Shown here: positions 4,449 to 45,496 of the stretch, piece by piece | Layout: every line of letters begins with the position of its first letter | Numbering within the stretch: position 1 is the stretch's first letter | Origin: Patescibacteria group bacterium | GTDB lineage: Bacteria > Patescibacteriota > Patescibacteriia > Patescibacteriales > GWC2-42-12 | Direction of reading: 5' to 3' | Assembly: GCA_028707005.1 (NCBI GenBank) | Contig: JAQTVB010000007.1 | Span: forward strand, 1-46,688 | DNA length: 46,688 nt | Made by a program: the position numbers and the translations under genes | Notes under the pieces: generated by a model | Seen by the model: the letters and a program-made list of their open reading frames with translations, nothing else | Databases searched by the model: none | Told to the model about the DNA's origin: nothing

Positions 4449-4454
4449 ATAAAT

Positions 4455-4603
4455 TCAATTATCAATTAGCAATTAAAAATTACGAATTAACTTGCATTAA
4501 TTCGTATAAACGCAATTCTTAATTTTGACTGATAATATATTAAATTAAAACCGGCCCACTGTCAAATAGCATTCGTAATTCGTAATTTTTAATTGATAAT
4601 TGA
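4455..4603. repeat. Long inverted repeat of the 'AATTACGAATTA' family
   Basis: The left arm (4455-4490, TCAATTATCAATTAGCAATTAAAAATTACG...) and right arm (4571-4603, ...CGTAATTTTTAATTGATAATTGA) are nearly complementary over about 30 nt, around an 80-nt centre. The same words recur at 38750-38790 (inside recG), near 43313-43332 and at 45419-45492. Confidence 0.75.
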
Positions 4604-4604
4604 C

Positions 4605-5876
4605 CTACTGGTAATCTCTCAACTTCTTGATGCCGGCATGCTTCTGAATCCGTTCAATCGCCTTGGCTTCAATTTGCCTGATGCGCTCGCGGGTGACGTC
4701 AAACTCGCGGCCGACTTCTTCCAGTGTATGGGCTACGCCGTCTACCAAGCCAAAACGCAATTCCAAAATTTTTTGTTCGCGCGGCGTCAACTCTTTAATC
4801 ACGTCTTTCACGTAATCTTTTAGTAAGCGCAAAGCGGCCGAACGATCAGGCGTGACATTCTTCACGTCTTCAATAAAATCTTCCAGCGTGGAATCTTCAT
4901 CATCCTCGCCGATGGTGGTTTCCAGGGAAATCGTATCCTGGGATATTTTTATGACATGTCTTACCTTATCAATCTCCTCGCCCATCTCCGAAGCAATTTC
5001 CTCCGGCAAAGGCTCGCGGCCCAAATCCTGGATCAGCTGGCGCTGAACCTGCTGGAATTTATTGATGGTTTCCACCATATGCACCGGAATCCTAATAGTG
5101 CGGGACTGGTCGGCCAGCGCCCGGGTGATCGCCTGCCTGATCCACCAGGTGGCGTAAGTGGAAAACTTGTAGCCTTTGCGGTTCTCGAATTTTTCCACGG
5201 CGCGAAACAAGCCGATATTGCCTTCCTGAATCAAATCTAAAAGCGACAGCCCCTTTGAGCCGGTAAACTTTTTAGCGATGGAAACCACCAAGCGCAGGTT
5301 GGCTTCAATCAGCTTCCTTTCCGCTTCTTTATCGCCCTTTTCCTTGCGCTTGGCCAATTCCACTTCTTCCTCGCTGGATAAGAGCGGCACTTTGCCGATT
5401 TCCCTTAAATACATCTGGATTGAATCGGCGCTTAATTCCGAGATGTCGTACTTTTTCTTTTCATTAAAGCCGCTGATTTGCGAGGTTTTTTTCTTAATAT
5501 CGTCGCCCAAACCCAAAAATCCGCCCGTGTCTTCAATGATCTGGATGCCATTTTTCTGCAATTCCTCCAAAGTCAACTCGTAATCAAAAATATATTCTTC
5601 AACTTCCGGAAAAATATGAAGCAATTCGGTTTCGGTGATAAAACCGCGCGAGCGACCTTTAACGATTAAATTTTTTATCTGCTCCTCGGTCGGCTTGGCA
5701 ATCAGATGCTCTGCCTGCGGTTCGGCTCTCTTGCCCGCTCCCCTTTTTTGCTTCGCCTTCTTCGCGTATTTTTTAAAGTATTTATGCCGCGCTTTATCCG
5801 CCTTTTTCCGCTTGAATTTCGGCTGATATTTTCTTTGCCTGGATTTTTTGCTGTTTTTTTTATTTTTCTTCGACAT
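4605..5876 (-). CDS. rpoD: Primary sigma factor RpoD (sigma-70)
   Basis: Group 1 sigma factor directing housekeeping transcription. After a very basic lysine-rich N-terminus come region 1.1-like sequence ([16 protein letters not shown]), region 1.2 ([17 protein letters not shown]), region 2 with the -10 reading segment ([35 protein letters not shown]), region 3 and region 4 with the -35 helix-turn-helix ([23 protein letters not shown]). It lies immediately downstream of dnaG, the classic macromolecular-synthesis pair, and the two are probably cotranscribed. I chose Met8 of the track ORF (MSKKNKK) as the start because the upstream ATG directly abuts the dnaG stop; the longer start at 5897 cannot be excluded. 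Confidence 0.95.
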
Positions 5877-5897
5877 ATATCTTAATAGTTGGATCAT

Positions 5898-13243: not shown

Positions 13244-14743
13244 TTATATTCCTGGTTTCTCTAAGTGCCACCGGGTCGTTGCCTCATAAGCCCAGCCGAC
13301 ACGAAACAGCATGGCTTCGTCAAATCTTCTGCCGATTAATTGCATGCCCACCGGCAAGCCATTGTCAAAGCCGCAGGGTATGGACATCGCCGGCAAGCCC
13401 GACAGCGACGCTCCGGCCATAAAAATATCTTCCAAATACATCTTTAAAGGATCTGCGGATTGCGGCGCGCCGATTTTAAACGCCACGTGCGGCGCGGTCG
13501 GAGTCAAAAGGCAATCAACTTCTTGTAAAACTTTATCCATTTCTTGTTTAATTTGGGTGCGCACTTTTTGCGCCTGTAAATAATAAGCGTCATAATAACC
13601 GGCGCTCAAAGCATAAGTGCCCAGCATAATGCGGCGCTTGGCTTCGGGCCCGAAACCCTTGCCCCGGCTCCTGGTATAGACGCTCATTAAATCATTACCC
13701 CTCTCCCGCGAGGTACGAGCGGGGGAGGTTAGGGAGGGGGCCGCGCTTAAGCCATATTTGATGCCATCGAAACGCGCCAAGTTAGAGCTGATCTCTGATG
13801 GTGTAATGATATAATAAACCGGAATAGCGTATTTGGTATGCGGCAGACTTACTGATTTGAATTTAACGCCCAACTTTTTCAAGGTTGCCACGGCTTGCTC
13901 TATGGCTTGGGTCACGCCCTGGTCAGTGCCCGCGGTAAAATACTCCTTGGGCAAACCAATGGTCATGCTCTTTAAATTTACCCTCTCCTTACTAAGGAGA
14001 GGGTTGGGGTGAGGTTGATTTACCGTGGTGGCGTCATTCTCATCAACTCCCGCGATCACGGATAGCACTATGGCTGCATCCTCCACGGTCTTGGCCAGCG
14101 GTCCGGGCACATCGGTTGAACTGGTCATGGCGATCAGGCCAAAACGAGAGCTTCGCCCATAAGTCGGCTTCAGGCCGACAATGCCGCAAAAACCGGCCGG
14201 GTATCTGATGGAGCCGCAGGTGTCCGTGCCCAAAGCGAATAAGCACATGTCGCTAGCCACGGCCGCGGCTGAGCCGCCGGATGAACCGCCGGGAACGCGC
14301 GTTAAGTCCCAGGGATTATGCGTCGGGCCAAAAGCTGAATTTTCCGTGGAAGAACCATGGGCAAATTCATCCAGATTGGTCTTGCCCAAAAGCACTGCGC
14401 CGGCTTGCTTTAATTTTTTGATAATCGTCGCATCATACGGCGCGATGTAATTTGCCAAAATTTTTGAAGCCGCCGTAGTTTTTATGCCGCGGGTTAAAAT
14501 ATTGTCCTTAGCAAAATACGGGATGCCCAATAAATCCCCGCTTTCGCCTGCAGCGCGCCGCTCATCGGCCTTTTTCGCCTCTGCCAACGCTTCTTTCTCG
14601 CAGACTGTTAGACACGCCTTTATCTTCCCGTCAATTTCTTTAATGCGTTTTAAACAGGCCTCGGTTAATGCGACCGAAGTTATTTCTTTTTTTGCCAGCA
14701 ACTGGCTGGCTTGCTTTATGGTAAGCTGGTTTAATGATTTCAT
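13244..14743 (-). CDS. gatA: Glu-tRNA(Gln) amidotransferase subunit A
   Basis: Amidase subunit that releases ammonia from glutamine for converting Glu-tRNA(Gln) and/or Asp-tRNA(Asn). The amidase signature is PGGSSGGSAAAVASD. The catalytic triad Lys79 (PYFAKDN), cis-Ser154 and Ser178 (DTCGSIRYPAG) falls at the same numbers as in Staphylococcus aureus GatA. Two in-frame inserts disturb otherwise conserved stretches: residues about 244-256 (PHPNPLLSKERVN) and 333-350 (AAPSLTSPARTSRERGND). Both are translated palindromic repeats and presumably lie in surface loops. gatC lies upstream, separated by an AT-rich GxxExxY gene; gatB is not in the window. Confidence 0.97.
   Translation of the reverse strand: MKSLNQLTIKQASQLLAKKEITSVALTEACLKRIKEIDGKIKACLTVCEKEALAEAKKADERRAAGESGDLLGIPYFAKDNILTRGIKTTAASKILANYIAPYDATIIKKLKQAGAVLLGKTNLDEFAHGSSTENSAFGPTHNPWDLTRVPGGSSGGSAAAVASDMCLFALGTDTCGSIRYPAGFCGIVGLKPTYGRSSRFGLIAMTSSTDVPGPLAKTVEDAAIVLSVIAGVDENDATTVNQPHPNPLLSKERVNLKSMTIGLPKEYFTAGTDQGVTQAIEQAVATLKKLGVKFKSVSLPHTKYAIPVYYIITPSEISSNLARFDGIKYGLSAAPSLTSPARTSRERGNDLMSVYTRSRGKGFGPEAKRRIMLGTYALSAGYYDAYYLQAQKVRTQIKQEMDKVLQEVDCLLTPTAPHVAFKIGAPQSADPLKMYLEDIFMAGASLSGLPAMSIPCGFDNGLPVGMQLIGRRFDEAMLFRVGWAYEATTRWHLEKPGI
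13694..13747. repeat. Palindromic repeat inserted in-frame in gatA (copy 1)
   Basis: Sequence of the type CCCTCTCCCGCGAGG...GCGGGGGAGGTTAGGGAGGGGG, with complementary CCCTCTCCC..GGGGGAGG arms. It encodes residues about 333-350 and keeps the frame open. Confidence 0.7.
13976..14014. repeat. Palindromic repeat inserted in-frame in gatA (copy 2)
   Basis: ACCCTCTCCTTACTAAGGAGAGGGTTGGGGTGAG has a perfect CCTCTCCTTA/TAAGGAGAGG palindrome. It is read as PHPNPLLSKERV, a peptide characteristic of dispersed bacterial palindromic repeats. Confidence 0.8.
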
Positions 14744-17597: not shown

Positions 17598-18014
17598 TTA
17601 CTCCGGCAAAGGAATCGGCGCCGACTGATTAATATCCGCCTGATAAGTGCTTTCAACCGATCTTTTCACCCCGCCATAACTGCCGATCGATTTAAAAGTT
17701 ATTGAACCGTTGGCCGAATATGAAACATTATAAACACTGCCATTGGCCAGCGGCACATTGGTAAACGAATTGATATTGTCATTTTTTCTGGCTTCCCACA
17801 GGGCCCGCTCCAAACCGGCTTCGGAAGCGAAAAAAGCGACGCTGGAATAACCGCTGAGCCGATTCATTTTTATGCCGGCAAAAACCAAATCAGCCGCGCC
17901 CAAAGTTACTATTAAAATACTGCTTAAAATAAGCAGAGCCATAAGCAATATCACGCCTTTTTGATTCTTCTTTATTCTGCCCCCTTGATAAAGGGGGTTA
18001 GGGGGATTTTTCAT
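17598..18014 (-). CDS. PilX-like minor pilin
   Basis: The 138-residue protein has a class III-like leader ending KKNQKG, then a hydrophobic helix VILLMALLILSSILIVTLGAADLVFAG, as in PilX/PilX_N proteins (no Glu5). It continues with YSSVAFFASEAGLERALWEARK, the PilX family motif, and a short beta-rich C-terminal domain ending with a proline-rich tail. It is the last gene of the pilus cluster. The leader peptide MKNPPNPLYQGG is the translation of a dispersed palindromic repeat, so the start codon itself may come from the repeat. It may be needed for pilus initiation or adhesion. Confidence 0.8.
   Translation of the reverse strand: MKNPPNPLYQGGRIKKNQKGVILLMALLILSSILIVTLGAADLVFAGIKMNRLSGYSSVAFFASEAGLERALWEARKNDNINSFTNVPLANGSVYNVSYSANGSITFKSIGSYGGVKRSVESTYQADINQSAPIPLPE
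17980..18007. repeat. Palindromic repeat 'CCCCCTTGATAAAGGGGG' in the minor-pilin leader
   Basis: CCCCCTT/AAGGGGG arms followed by GGTTAGGGGGAT. A related element is present inside recG (39405-39449). Here it encodes NPPNPLYQGG of the PilX-like leader. Confidence 0.7.
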
Positions 18015-37700: not shown

Positions 37701-39851
37701 TTACTCCAAATGCGTCTTCTTTTCCCACGCGCCCAGTTGATCTTGTAAGGCTGGCCAGCGGCTCAAAGTCGGGTCAATCGCCAACAGTTTGATGGCCTGA
37801 TCGCGAGCCGATTTCATCAGAGTATAATCAAATAAAGACGCCATCTTCAGTTCAGGAAAGCCTTTTTGCTCGGTGCCGTAAACTTCGCCCGGGCCGCGGA
37901 ACTTTAAATCCAGTTTAGCCAGAGCAAAACCGTCATGGTTTTCTTCCAGCGCCCGCAAACGCTTTTGCGTCGCTTCTCCGGCCGACTCGGTAAATAAAAA
38001 ACAATAGGACTGATGAACGCTGCGGCCTACCCGGCCGCGGAATTGATGCAGCTGCGCCAGCCCAAAGCGGTCCGCGCCTTCAATCATCATCACCGCGGCG
38101 TTGGACACGTCCACGCCGACTTCTATAACCGAAGTGGCCACTAAAATGTTAATCTTATTTTCTAAAAATTTCGCCATGATCGCTTCTTTTTCCTTAGGCT
38201 TTAACCGGCCATGCAGCTTGCCGATGGCCAAATCGGGAAAAATAATCTTTTTAAGCTTTTGATATTCTTCTTCAACTGATTTCACGCCCAATTTGCTCGC
38301 CTCGCTGGCGCTTAAAGGGCGAAGCGGGTCGGACAGGTCAATTAGCGGACAAATCACAAAAACCTGCCGGCCCGCGCTAATCTGCTCACGGATAAATTTA
38401 TAGGCAACCGCCCGCTGATTTTCCGGCACCAGCCTGGTGATGATTCTTTTTCTGTCTTTGGGCATTTCGTTGATCATAGACAGCTCCAAATCGCCGTACA
38501 AAGCCAGGGCCAGGCTCCGCGGAATCGGCGTAGCGGTCATGCTTAAGAGGTGCGGCACCAGCTCGCCGCCGGTTTTTTCCATCAGCGCTTTTCTCTGCTC
38601 CACGCCGAAGCGGTGCTGTTCGTCAATCACCGCCAAAGCCAAATTCCTGAATTTTATGTCCTCCTGGATTAAGGCATGCGTACCGATAATTAAATCTGAA
38701 TTATGAATAATGAATGATGAATCACGGTCTTTAATTTTTGTCTTTTCTCCATAATTCGTAATTCGTAATTCGTAATTCGTAATTTTCTGATTGCTAGTCA
38801 TCAGTCCCACTTTCATGCCAAAGCCCGACAGCAGGCGGCTCACTGTTTCATAGTGTTGCCTGGCCAGTATTTCCGTCGGCACCATCAATGCCGCCTGTTT
38901 TTTATTAAGCGCCACATTAAGCATGGCCATGATAGCCACTAAAGTCTTGCCACTGCCGACTTCGCCTTCCAAGAGCCGAGACATGGGCCGGTTTTTTTCC
39001 ATGTCCAATAAAATTTCCCAGGCGGCTTTTCTTTGTGCGTTGGTTAAGGTAAACGGCAAACTATCAACAAATTGCTTGGTCTCCGCTTCGTGGAATTTTA
39101 TGGCCCAGGCCCGGCTTAAATTTAAGCTCCGCTTCACCAATTGCGACTGCAGCTGAATTAAAAAAAGCTCGTTAAAGGCCAAGCGCTCGCGAGCTTTTTT
39201 AATCTCTGAACTATTTTTGGGAAAATGAATCTTCTTGATTGCTTCGGCTAAACTGATCAGCCTGGCCGGCTGCTTAATTTCCCAGGGCAGCCAATCCGGC
39301 GTTTGATTGGCCAGATTAATCACCTGTTTAATTAAAAACCTTACCTGCTTATGCGTCAAATTGGCGGTAAGATGATAATTGGGCACTAGTCCCTGCGTAT
39401 GAATGGCATTTATCCCCCCTGACAAGGGGGGAATAAGGGGGGTTTGTATCTTTTCATAAACCGGCGACATCATCACTAAGCCGCCATAATCGTCTTCCAC
39501 CTTGCCGGCCAGCGAGACTTGATCGCCCGCCTGCAAAACGCGCGCCAAAAAAGGCTGATTGAACCAAATCACTTTTAACGTTTCCGCACCATCGCCGATT
39601 AACGCTTCGGTAATATTCATTCTGCGCTTCCAACTCCGTTTATTCTGAATTAATTCAATCTGGCCGACCACGTTCGCGCTGGTCCCGGCCTGCAATTTTT
39701 CAATCGGCGTTATTTTGGAAAAATCGTCGTAGCGGAAAGGAAAATAAAATAACAAGTCGCGCACCGTGGCCACGCCCAATTTTTTCAGCTTCTTGGCCGT
39801 GGCCGCGCCCACGCGGGTGATATGAATAATGTCGGTATCTAAAGTCAACAT
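37701..39851 (-). CDS. recG: ATP-dependent DNA helicase RecG
   Basis: Branch-migration helicase for stalled forks and recombination. It has the N-terminal OB/wedge domain (about 1-160), Walker A LEGEVGSGKTLVA (about 294-306), DEQH box (410-413: VIDEQHRFGVEQR), motif III LLSMTATPIPRSLAL, helicase C with TSVIEVGVDVSNAAVMMIE and QFRGRVGRS, and a TRG/wedge C-terminus. Two in-frame repeat inserts are evident: residues about 135-149 (IQTPLIPPLSGGINA) and about 354-385 (NQKITNYELRITNY..SSFIIHNS). The second lies between helicase motifs Ia and II, where RecG normally has a short variable segment. The frame is intact throughout. Confidence 0.96.
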   Translation of the reverse strand: MLTLDTDIIHITRVGAATAKKLKKLGVATVRDLLFYFPFRYDDFSKITPIEKLQAGTSANVVGQIELIQNKRSWKRRMNITEALIGDGAETLKVIWFNQPFLARVLQAGDQVSLAGKVEDDYGGLVMMSPVYEKIQTPLIPPLSGGINAIHTQGLVPNYHLTANLTHKQVRFLIKQVINLANQTPDWLPWEIKQPARLISLAEAIKKIHFPKNSSEIKKARERLAFNELFLIQLQSQLVKRSLNLSRAWAIKFHEAETKQFVDSLPFTLTNAQRKAAWEILLDMEKNRPMSRLLEGEVGSGKTLVAIMAMLNVALNKKQAALMVPTEILARQHYETVSRLLSGFGMKVGLMTSNQKITNYELRITNYGEKTKIKDRDSSFIIHNSDLIIGTHALIQEDIKFRNLALAVIDEQHRFGVEQRKALMEKTGGELVPHLLSMTATPIPRSLALALYGDLELSMINEMPKDRKRIITRLVPENQRAVAYKFIREQISAGRQVFVICPLIDLSDPLRPLSASEASKLGVKSVEEEYQKLKKIIFPDLAIGKLHGRLKPKEKEAIMAKFLENKINILVATSVIEVGVDVSNAAVMMIEGADRFGLAQLHQFRGRVGRSVHQSYCFLFTESAGEATQKRLRALEENHDGFALAKLDLKFRGPGEVYGTEQKGFPELKMASLFDYTLMKSARDQAIKLLAIDPTLSRWPALQDQLGAWEKKTHLE
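38697..38792. repeat. Dispersed 'ATTCGTAATTCGTAATT' repeat inside recG
   Basis: A tandem ATTCGTAATTCGTAATTCGTAATT block (about 38752-38784) preceded by ATGAATAATGAATGATGAATCA. It is read in-frame as ITNYELRITNYG and SFIIHNS in RecG. The same words occur in the intergenic repeats at 4455-4603, 43310-43332 and 45419-45492. Confidence 0.8.
39405..39449. repeat. Palindromic 'CCCCCCTGACAAGGGGGG' repeat inside recG
   Basis: CCCCCCT/AGGGGGG arms followed by AATAAGGGGGGTTTG, related to the repeat at 17980-18007. It is translated as TPLIPPLSGGI. Confidence 0.75.
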
Positions 39852-40576: not shown

Positions 40577-40661
40577 TTAATTTTTAATCACTCTCCGCCT
40601 TAAATGCGCTGGGATGTGGACTAAAATTTCCCAAGGAATCATGCCGACGGCTTTGGCTATA
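40577..40661 (-). pseudogene. 3' fragment of a second alanine racemase gene
   Basis: Minus-strand reading gives IAKAVGMIPWEILVHIPAHLRRRVIKN-stop, matching the alr C-terminus in this window (IAKAVGTIPWEILVHIPAHLRRVVN) with differences in the last residues and about 90% nucleotide identity over 60 nt. Similarity stops abruptly after GGCTATA at 40661. It is a remnant of a duplicated or replaced alr copy in the same orientation as the intact gene about 1.2 kb away. Confidence 0.85.
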
Positions 40662-41770: not shown

Positions 41771-42925
41771 TTAATTTACGACTCGTCTTAAATGCGCCGG
41801 GATGTGGACTAAAATTTCCCAAGGAATCGTGCCGACGGCTTTGGCTATATTGTCAACCGAATTTTTGTCATTTTGCTTATTGCTGATAATTACCACTTCA
41901 TCGCCCGATTTTATATCCTGCACTGCCGAGACGTCTAGGGAAGTAATATTCATGCTCACTCGGCCGACAATTGGGCAAAACTGGCCGCGCACTTTTAAAA
42001 AGCCGCAATCAGACAGTCGCCGATCCACGCCCTCATAATACCCGGCCGGTACCGTAGCGATTATCGCATCGCGCTTTAATTCATGAGTCAGATTATAGCC
42101 CAAGCGCTCTCCGGCTTTAAGCCGCTTGACCGAACTGATGATTGACCGCATGGCCAAAACCGGCTTGAGCTTCAAGCTAAGCCGCGGCGACGGCTTAAGG
42201 CCATACAAACCGATGCCCAGCCGGGCCACGTTATGATCAATTTGGTCGCCATATAACATCCCGGCCGTGGCCGCCAGATGAAAATATTTTATAGTAGAAA
42301 AATTATGCCTAAAAATCGCCGCTGCTTTCGCCCACTGCTCAATCTGCGATTTGGTAAAAGCTTCTTCCGGCCCGTCCGCGTCGGCCAGATGCGAGCAAAC
42401 GCCTTCCAAAATCAAAAATTTATTTCCTTTAATGATTTTCACGGCTTGATCAATCTGGCTGAATAAAATCCCCTGCCGATGCATGCCGGTATCTATTTTT
42501 AAATGAATCGTTAATGGCGAAAATAAATTTTCGGCAACCGACGTTAAGTGCTCCAGGCTGGTGATGGTAAAAGAAAAATTTTTCCGCTGGAAATTTTTAA
42601 CATTTTCCGCATGGGTATAGCCAATAATCAAAATTTTGGATTTTATGCCATGATGCCTTAAACTCAGGGCCTCGGCTAGCGAATCAACAACAAAAAAAGG
42701 GATTTTCTCCCTATCTAAAATTTCGGCGGCCGGCGCCAAGCCATGGCCGTAAGCATTGCTTTTTAAAACCGGCGCCAAAGCCAGAGCCGGATAGGCTCGC
42801 TGGAATTCATGCAAATTGTCCAGCAAATTTTTCCTGGAAATTAAAACTTCCACCAGCGGGCGGAAGCGGGAAAAACGCTGCCTGATTTTTCTCAAAAAAT
42901 TTAAAAATTTCATAAAAGGAGTCAT
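41771..42925 (-). CDS. alr: Alanine racemase
   Basis: PLP enzyme making D-alanine for peptidoglycan. The PLP-lysine motif is APVLKSNAYGHG. Further family motifs are HLKIDTGMHRQG, AATAGMLYG, RLGIGLYGLKPS, the catalytic-tyrosine region AGERLGYNLTHEL and the C-terminal VGRVSMNITSLDVS, in normal order; length about 384. The track start is a TTG inside the tRNA-Arg acceptor stem, so I use the ATG at 42925 (Met7; Met11 at 42913 is possible). The gene starts about 10 nt after tRNA-Arg and is probably read from the same transcript. Confidence 0.95.
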   Translation of the reverse strand: MTPFMKFLNFLRKIRQRFSRFRPLVEVLISRKNLLDNLHEFQRAYPALALAPVLKSNAYGHGLAPAAEILDREKIPFFVVDSLAEALSLRHHGIKSKILIIGYTHAENVKNFQRKNFSFTITSLEHLTSVAENLFSPLTIHLKIDTGMHRQGILFSQIDQAVKIIKGNKFLILEGVCSHLADADGPEEAFTKSQIEQWAKAAAIFRHNFSTIKYFHLAATAGMLYGDQIDHNVARLGIGLYGLKPSPRLSLKLKPVLAMRSIISSVKRLKAGERLGYNLTHELKRDAIIATVPAGYYEGVDRRLSDCGFLKVRGQFCPIVGRVSMNITSLDVSAVQDIKSGDEVVIISNKQNDKNSVDNIAKAVGTIPWEILVHIPAHLRRVVN

Positions 42926-42934
42926 TCTAAAATG

Positions 42935-43006
42935 TGCCCTCAAGAGGAATTGAACCTCTGTCCCAAGCTCCGGAGGCTTGTACTCTATCCGTTGAGCTAT
43001 GAGGGC
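42935..43006 (-). tRNA. tRNA-Arg (CCG)
   Basis: Acceptor GCCCTCA/TGAGGGC, anticodon stem CAAGC/GCTTG with loop CTCCGGA giving CCG, T-arm AGAGGTTCAATTCCTCT. Discriminator A, CCA not encoded (ACA). All stems are fully paired. Confidence 0.93.
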
Positions 43007-43240: not shown

Positions 43241-43337
43241 ACCAAAAGGCACTAACTAATTAAAGATGAAATTATCTAAGCAAAAAAACCTATTAGCCAA
43301 GGCGTTTTCTCATAATTCGTAATTCGTAATTCACTTG

Positions 43338-44579
43338 TTATCTGCCGCGCCGCCGGCCCATAATCGGCGGCCTGGAGCGCCGGACGGCCGATCGTCCGAA
43401 GCTCATGGTCCGGCCGTAGCGCCTGAAAGTCGGGCGCGTGCCAGCCTGCTCCAGTTCGACGAATTTTTTCAAAGTAAGCTTTTTATTAATCAATCTTTCA
43501 ATGCTCCTAACGTCTTTGCCCTGATCGGGCGTGGCGAAAGAAATCGCTTTGCCGACCTTGCCGGCGCGGGCGGTGCGGCCGATGCGATGCACGTAATCTT
43601 CCGAATCGTCCGGCAAATCATAGTTCACCACCAGCTCAATATCCGAAACATCAATGCCGCGCGCGGCAATATCCGTAGCGATAAGAATCCGGTATTTCCG
43701 GGATTTAAAGCCGGACATTGATTCCTTGCGCTGATTAAATGATAAATTGGAATGAATTTCCGCCACTTCATGCCCGCTCTGCTCTAAAGTCCTGGCTAAA
43801 TTTCTCGCGCCATATTTAGTCCTGGTAAAAACCAAAACCGAGCCCCGGTATTCATGAAGAATCTTTTCCAACTGGCCGCGCTTATCCTCTTTCCTCATAA
43901 CATAAACTTCTTGATCAACCAACTCCACCGTAGTTCCCGGCGGAGCTACTTCAATATGAATCGGCATGATCATATGAACCGAAGCCAATTTTAAAATCGC
44001 CCGAGGCATGGTGGCGGAAAAGAGCATGGTTTGCCGTTTTTTCGGCACCCGTTTAATAATTTCTTCTATCTGCGGAGCAAAACCCATGTCAAACATCCGG
44101 TCGGCTTCGTCCAGAACCAAAATTTTAACCCGGTCCAATCTCACCGAACCGCGCCTAAGATGATCAATCATCCGGCCCGGCGTGGCGATATAGATATGAG
44201 GATTTCTTCTAAGGCTTTGCAATTGGCTGCCGATGCCCTGGCCGCCAATCAGCGAGATGGTCCTAAGGCCAAGCTTGCCGCCGAGCTGGCGCAAACTCTC
44301 ATCAACCTGCAAGGCCAGTTCGCGGGTCGGCAATAAAACCAAGCCCTGGCCGCCGCTAACGGCCAGCCGCTCAATCATGGGAATGCCGAAAGCGAAAGTT
44401 TTGCCCGTGCCGGTTTGGGCCACGCCGATTAAATCCTGGCCGGTTAAAGCGACCGGAATTGATTTGGTCTGAATTGGTGTGGGCGTGTCTAATTTTAGAC
44501 TATTGAGCACGTTTAAAATTGAGGCGCTAACGCCCAAATCTTTAAAAGTAGATTCGGTTGGTTTGGTTGGTAGAGACAT
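43338..44579 (-). CDS. DEAD-box RNA helicase (RhlE-like)
   Basis: The 413-residue protein has Q motif TPTPIQ (32-37), motif I AQTGTGKT (54-61), Ia PTRELA, Ib TPGR, II VLDEADRMFDMGF, III SAT, and helicase C with VFTRTK, IATDIAARGIDV and HRIGRTARAG. The C-terminus is a short basic Arg/Gly-rich tail (RRYGRTMSFGRSAVRRSRPPIMGRRRGR) as in RhlE/CsdA-like RNA remodelling helicases. It probably acts in ribosome assembly or RNA decay. The ATG is 4 nt from the 3' end of tRNA-Arg(GCG), so the two are likely cotranscribed. Confidence 0.95.
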   Translation of the reverse strand: MSLPTKPTESTFKDLGVSASILNVLNSLKLDTPTPIQTKSIPVALTGQDLIGVAQTGTGKTFAFGIPMIERLAVSGGQGLVLLPTRELALQVDESLRQLGGKLGLRTISLIGGQGIGSQLQSLRRNPHIYIATPGRMIDHLRRGSVRLDRVKILVLDEADRMFDMGFAPQIEEIIKRVPKKRQTMLFSATMPRAILKLASVHMIMPIHIEVAPPGTTVELVDQEVYVMRKEDKRGQLEKILHEYRGSVLVFTRTKYGARNLARTLEQSGHEVAEIHSNLSFNQRKESMSGFKSRKYRILIATDIAARGIDVSDIELVVNYDLPDDSEDYVHRIGRTARAGKVGKAISFATPDQGKDVRSIERLINKKLTLKKFVELEQAGTRPTFRRYGRTMSFGRSAVRRSRPPIMGRRRGR

Positions 44580-45398: not shown

Positions 45399-45418
45399 TA
45401 TTGTAGCACGAAATAAAT

Positions 45419-45492
45419 CAATTATCAATTACGAATTAAAAATTACGAATTAAATTTTTGATTCGTAATTTTTAATTGTTAATTCGTAATTG
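45419..45492. repeat. Inverted repeat of the 'AATTACGAATTA' family
   Basis: CAATTATCAATTACGAATTAAAAATTACG... followed by its imperfect complement ...CGTAATTTTTAATTGTTAATTCGTAATTG; about 25-30 paired bases with a bulge. Same family as 4455-4603 and the recG insert. Confidence 0.75.
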
Positions 45493-45496
45493 AATT

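Follow-up and report, generated by a model that had tools for sequence, protein, structure and literature searches.

Small dispersed hairpin-forming repeats have probably struck recG of a Falkowbacteria-like bacterium three times

The recG gene of an uncultured, Falkowbacteria-like bacterium has very probably been struck three times by different small dispersed hairpin-forming repeats, which are tolerated as loops of the encoded protein. The gene lies in a window of 46,688 nucleotides, the whole stretch of DNA analysed, taken from a draft genome of 1.08 Mb in 43 contigs; the nearest relatives share only ~75% protein identity. Its three inserts, termed A, B and C, belong to unrelated dispersed repeat families, and each of them is in frame (Table 1). 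The three families are multicopy DNA elements that occur both between and inside genes. An earlier note on this DNA had described two unrelated repeat families in frame in recG; their coordinates and the kept reading frame agree with our analysis, in which the ORF of 716 residues is intact, but the count of two falls short by insert C.

The product of recG contains the RecG_wedge, DEAD and Helicase_C domains (Pfam) and passes the RecG-specific NCBIfam model NF008168 with 808.9 bits, compared to a cut-off of 718. Wedge domain, helicase domains and a score above the curated cut-off are thus combined in one protein, which also matches Thermotoga maritima RecG (PDB 1gm5) with an E-value of 9.7e-148. 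Its named RecG relatives come mostly from Candidatus Falkowbacteria and other Parcubacteria. The ORF listing gives a frame uninterrupted over its full length, and the frameshift that was sought as a refutation is absent from all insert sites. Insert A is flanked by helicase motifs Ia (PTEILARQH, residues 325-333) and II (DEQH, residues 410-413), as the earlier note had placed it. The AlphaFold2 model, predicted from 40 sequences, has a mean pLDDT of 81.3 and a pTM of 0.71. Segments with pLDDT below 50 comprise residues 138-147 (B), 363-372 (A) and 508-522 (C), in addition to 443-452, 654-666 and the C-terminus. As all three inserts fall in such segments, they are predicted to form flexible loops, where the low pLDDT may stem partly from a thin alignment.

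Table 1. Positions of recG, its inserts and related repeats in the window
Feature	Positions	Strand	Description
recG, ATP-dependent DNA helicase	37701..39851	minus	716 aa, open frame with three repeat inserts
Insert C in recG	38295..38327	minus	CCGCTTCGCC..AGCGAGGCGAGC, 33 nt, read PLRPLSASEAS, aa 509-519
Insert A in recG	38697..38783	minus	AATTACG heptads and imperfect inverted second arm, aa 357-385
Insert B in recG	39414..39446	minus	AAACCCCCCTTATT + CCCCCCTTGTCAGGGGGG hairpin, read TPLIPPLSGG, aa 137-146, wedge domain
B copy in leader of pilin-like ORF	17980..18009	minus	MKNPPNPLYQGG
gatA loop 1	13976..14020	minus	CCCTCTCCTTAGTAAGGAGAGGG palindrome, read NQPHPNPLLSKERVN
gatA loop 2	13691..13741	minus	repeat-derived APSLTSPARTSRERGND
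Intergenic A hairpin	45415..45496	not assigned	two heptad arms, adjoining tRNA-Ser
Intergenic A arms	4452..4603	not assigned	inverted, between tRNA-Asn and sigma-factor-like gene 4605-5897
Intergenic A copy	43313..43331	minus	at 3' end of DEAD-box helicase gene 43338-44579

Family A is an array of degenerate AATTANN heptads (AATTACG, AATTAAA, AATTATC and similar). Its 19-mer AATTACGAATTACGAATTA has 50 matches in the 1.08-Mb draft genome, counted with at most one mismatch and with overlapping registers included, versus none for the reversed control. Between genes, A often folds into a hairpin whose two arms are inverted, as it does next to tRNAs; inside genes it usually consists of one arm. The recG copy is a two-armed imperfect palindrome, in which the heptads read ITNYELRITNY and the second arm reads SSFIIHNS. 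In the genome stretches fetched around matches, A is found in frame in 13 genes (recG, murG, murC, queA, cca, valS, rsmI, leuS, ruvX, ileS, miaB and prmC, the last two with two sites each, and a methyltransferase-like gene). The stop-free orientation is used at 14 of the 15 in-gene sites, as selection on the frame demands, since the complement contains TAA. These copies also agree at synonymous sites: all 9 of the 9 copies have CGA as the codon of the central arginine, though one, on contig C6, may precede the true start; in 20 genes of the window, CGA makes up 6.4% of arginine codons. The A copies are therefore homologous at the DNA level, and the same shared codons lead us to reject peptide convergence as their source. 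Two further arrays were observed. On contig C38 of this genome (G000:C38:2194-7995), two-armed A hairpins stand between several successive genes and could serve as inter-gene hairpins or terminators; in a genome of the same family, a long unbroken AATTACG array with 12 overlapping 19-mer registers (G009:C14:30501-30596) is likely a slippage expansion.

In family B, a tag, AATCCCCC.., precedes a CCCCC..GGGGG hairpin. Its palindrome form CCCCCT..AGGGGG has 100 matches per strand in this genome, versus 3 for the control. One copy occupies the leader of a pilin-like ORF, where the earlier note had reported a recurrence of the repeat.

Family C is a palindrome of roughly 30 nt, with 3 strict copies in this genome, 24 in G024 and 39 in G035, the highest number per genome; the control gave 1 match across 111 genomes. 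In the recG product, insert C splits the sequence between LIDLSD and KLGVKS. The identical codon boundary is occupied by C in four genomes (G000, which is the one studied here, G021, G024 and G035) representing four families of the order. With the flanks intact, the insert measures 30 nt in G021, 33 nt in this genome and 180 nt in G024, where tandem amplification has produced six copies of 30 nt. In those relatives from the same genus and family whose sequence spans the site, recG is uninterrupted there, and on an insert-free tree, drawn without support values, each C-bearing recG stands beside C-less relatives, a distribution that requires precise events, about four if they were gains or about ten if they were losses. 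By eye, no target-site duplication was recognised at this site, and hairpins are present. A search for a target consensus revealed that several intergenic copies of C lie within another palindrome, TCATTCCCGC..GCGGGAAT, a context that the recG site lacks. At four loci (L278, L281, L286 and L303), C is nested within a dispersed palindrome TCATTCCCGC..GCGGGAATC, as repeats inserted into repeats.

Comparison with relatives revealed presence/absence variation at all three insert loops of recG, as the earlier note had proposed to look for; each loop is either empty, filled by the same family or filled by a different repeat. The wedge-domain loop (SPVYEK..HTQGLVP) is short and lacks insert B in G003, G007 and G011, and is filled with varied B-type or other peptides in G001, G006, G018, G024, G035 and G044 (for example, NPPSPLYQGG in G018 and LTPALSFARRG in G035). 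The A loop is of the NYE.GIMN..IHNSLFIIHNS type in many genera and of the SNDKFPMSNQ type in others; G047 and G059 have a short one. In this genome the loop is longer than the corresponding loop of T. maritima RecG. It is not a plain addition of 32 residues: in this part of the tree, the loops of most relatives are similar in length and filled with other repeats. The loop of cca is short (MALKSDGRTIIDLFGG) in G006 and G008, and elsewhere holds heptads, SIFNFQFSI, NSKFQIPN or KVKSQKSKV; ileS, murG, valS, leuS and gatA follow the same orthologue pattern. Repeat-bearing genomes amount to 39 (A), 24 (B) and 21 (C) of the 111 genomes of the order, and A occurs in 8 of 380 genomes of a phylum-wide sample. 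Since the loops of relatives carry other repeats or none, essential genes of this lineage have been decorated repeatedly by small mobile-looking DNA. An assembly or binning artefact, for which a draft in 43 contigs might leave room, is extremely unlikely, as relatives with independent assemblies show inserts of the same kinds at these loops; moreover, the frame is intact at all sites.

In gatA, the two inserts belong to a further palindrome kind, CCCTCTCC..GGAGAGGG, which is neither A nor B; the recurrence in gatA claimed by the earlier note therefore stands for repeat inserts as such, but not for the same families. Both gatA loops of relatives carry B-type peptides, and loop 2 is alternatively short. 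Additional repeat-like peptides in the same proteins include AYAEASAGKP, LPTGRQA and PHPNPLLSKER. Among other features of this genome, a putative alpha/beta-hydrolase-like stretch (HFVILHGYTATGLSNGPARGSSDNW...) seemingly lies inside the leucyl-tRNA synthetase (L160:1-3216). A 66-nt direct repeat occurs in the window at 40596-40661 and 41784-41849 with 95% identity; its second copy overlaps the 3' end of an alanine-racemase-like gene (41771-42943), which points to a partial duplication. An Rfam search of the window revealed tRNAs only.

The length of the loops bears on how they were filled. Insertions into recG (B and C) and cca are additive. The situation in leuS, ileS, murG and gatA loop 1 counts against simple insertion: there, the repeat peptide stands in for loop residues and the net length hardly changes. 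Near-constant length with differing repeat content would be expected if hairpin-driven template switching or gene conversion between repeats overwrote the loop DNA; likewise, residues of a short predicted helix are encoded in this genome by the second arm of insert A in recG, and in relatives by other sequence. We nevertheless consider such conversion unlikely, given the clean additive insertions of C (30, 33 and 180 nt) and B in recG and that in cca, and given that insertion followed by trimming of old residues would look alike. We take the equal-length loops as insertion followed by trimming. The occupation of one codon boundary by C in four families also counts against insertion of dispersed repeats, as do the missing link to a transposase and the failure to recognise a target-site duplication; a combined reading, in which repeats overwrite tolerant loops by templated conversion from genus to genus and C site-specifically targets this boundary in recG, is likewise improbable.

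A selected protein feature was also considered, in which the inserts would act as functional linkers, such as the β-hairpin-like KIKNYELRI. The heptad peptides alternate hydrophobic and polar residues, several of them sit where hairpin tips are expected, and the loops recur. Such a role is nonetheless very unlikely, as the same DNA occurs in intergenic hairpins, the copies in genes agree at synonymous sites, the same loop holds unrelated peptides or none, and model confidence is low at the inserts. Most likely, the peptide inserts are carried along with nearly neutral effect.

The genome encodes one RAYT (NF047646, E=1.3e-31) and two IS200-type proteins, and across genomes the presence of Y1 correlates with A, B and C at odds ratios of 7-9, uncorrected for phylogeny or genome completeness. 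The RAYT gene (L142:1345-2187; G000:C2, ~24403) contains a tandem duplication of a segment, GEDIYPRLHDEYENFSN.., that includes in frame the gene's own palindrome, GAAGGCGAGGATATATATCCTCGCCTTC; a related palindrome directly follows the gene end. These features would suit direct mobilisation of A, B and C by a RAYT/IS200-type transposase of the lineage, whose REPs they would be. Against this stand the 29 RAYT/Y1 loci, scored by presence in the fetched stretch without gene distances and with many Y1 ORFs missed: most of them have palindromes other than A, B and C, with C near none, A somewhere within the stretch of three, and one B-like core inside a longer palindrome at one. Copy-rich genomes without a Y1 match also exist (G002, G003 (B) and G009 (A)). 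Furthermore, GTAG or CGTC tags within 8 nt of the core, scored for B and C, are not enriched (1 of 29 and 1 of 35, respectively, versus a random background of 138 of 2000, or 7%). Direct mobilisation by this enzyme is accordingly doubtful. As a class, an RAYT/IS200-type (HUH) transposase is the most plausible mobilising enzyme, without a link to A, B or C. The active spread put forward by the earlier note holds as turnover between species and genera only, and the analysis connected no enzyme with the three families.

Overall, we favor repeated insertion of dispersed repeats into recG. The elements would spread by a copy-and-insert process resembling that of REP, RPE or MITE elements, and tandem slippage may assist, as the six C copies in one relative suggest. 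Selection would remove the insertions that break frame or fold, so that survivors collect at a few tolerant loops of housekeeping proteins, where they may later decay or be overwritten.

Rickettsia, Wolbachia and some bacteria with REPs were already known to have protein-coding repeats; in the present case, a small patescibacterial genome is shaped by several repeat families together, and in different genera repeats have struck the same loops time and again. For RecG, tRNA synthetases and cell-wall enzymes, the inserts amount to insertion experiments done by nature, and they account for unusual loops by which annotation, structure prediction and phylogeny could be misled. The system also makes it testable how hairpin repeats get into genes without a visible transposase.

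In the literature searched, with most subscription journals outside its reach, no report of such elements in CPR/Patescibacteria was found. Heptamer repeats occur in cyanobacteria. Like these and the heptamers of Beggiatoaceae, such as TAACTGA (cited in PMC4853749), family A lines up 7-nt units between genes in both direct and inverted arrays, but its unit is AATTANN, and it also lies inside coding sequence, where the stop-free strand is used. Intragenic MITEs, such as the Correia/NEMIS and RU elements (PMC2229807, PMC2759123), are likewise small repeats fused in frame with a preference for stop-free versions in genes; compared to them, A, B and C are much shorter, and an unsystematic inspection recognised no TA duplication or matching IS ends. 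REP/REPIN elements with RAYT transposases (PMC3733652, PMC3116915, PMC2817692) share the short palindromes, the many copies, some of them intragenic and in DNA-repair genes, and the RAYT in the genome. They differ in that B and C lack GTAG/CGTC enrichment, the RAYT genes go with other palindromes, and A is a heptad array rather than one hairpin.

The Rickettsia palindromic elements (RPEs) of Ogata, Claverie and colleagues and their Wolbachia equivalents, as reviewed in PMC2229807 and PMC3733652, are also palindromes, found outside coding DNA as well as in frame in conserved genes, where they are tolerated, with several families per genome and no identified mover enzyme. Activity was reported for a guanylate kinase that contains an RPE (PMC2229807). 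As with RPEs, the same palindromic repeat is found here between genes and in frame in conserved genes, and orthologues without the insert exist. However, RPEs belong to another phylum, and A, B and C, of ~30-90 nt, show no sequence relation to them when compared without alignment. RPE-4 and RPE-6 carry a CGTC end tag, which is not enriched in B and C, and here the same loops are struck in different genera by different families. The closest precedents for the inserts in recG are RPEs of Rickettsia and intragenic REPs, among them those in repair genes (PMC3733652, PMC2229807).
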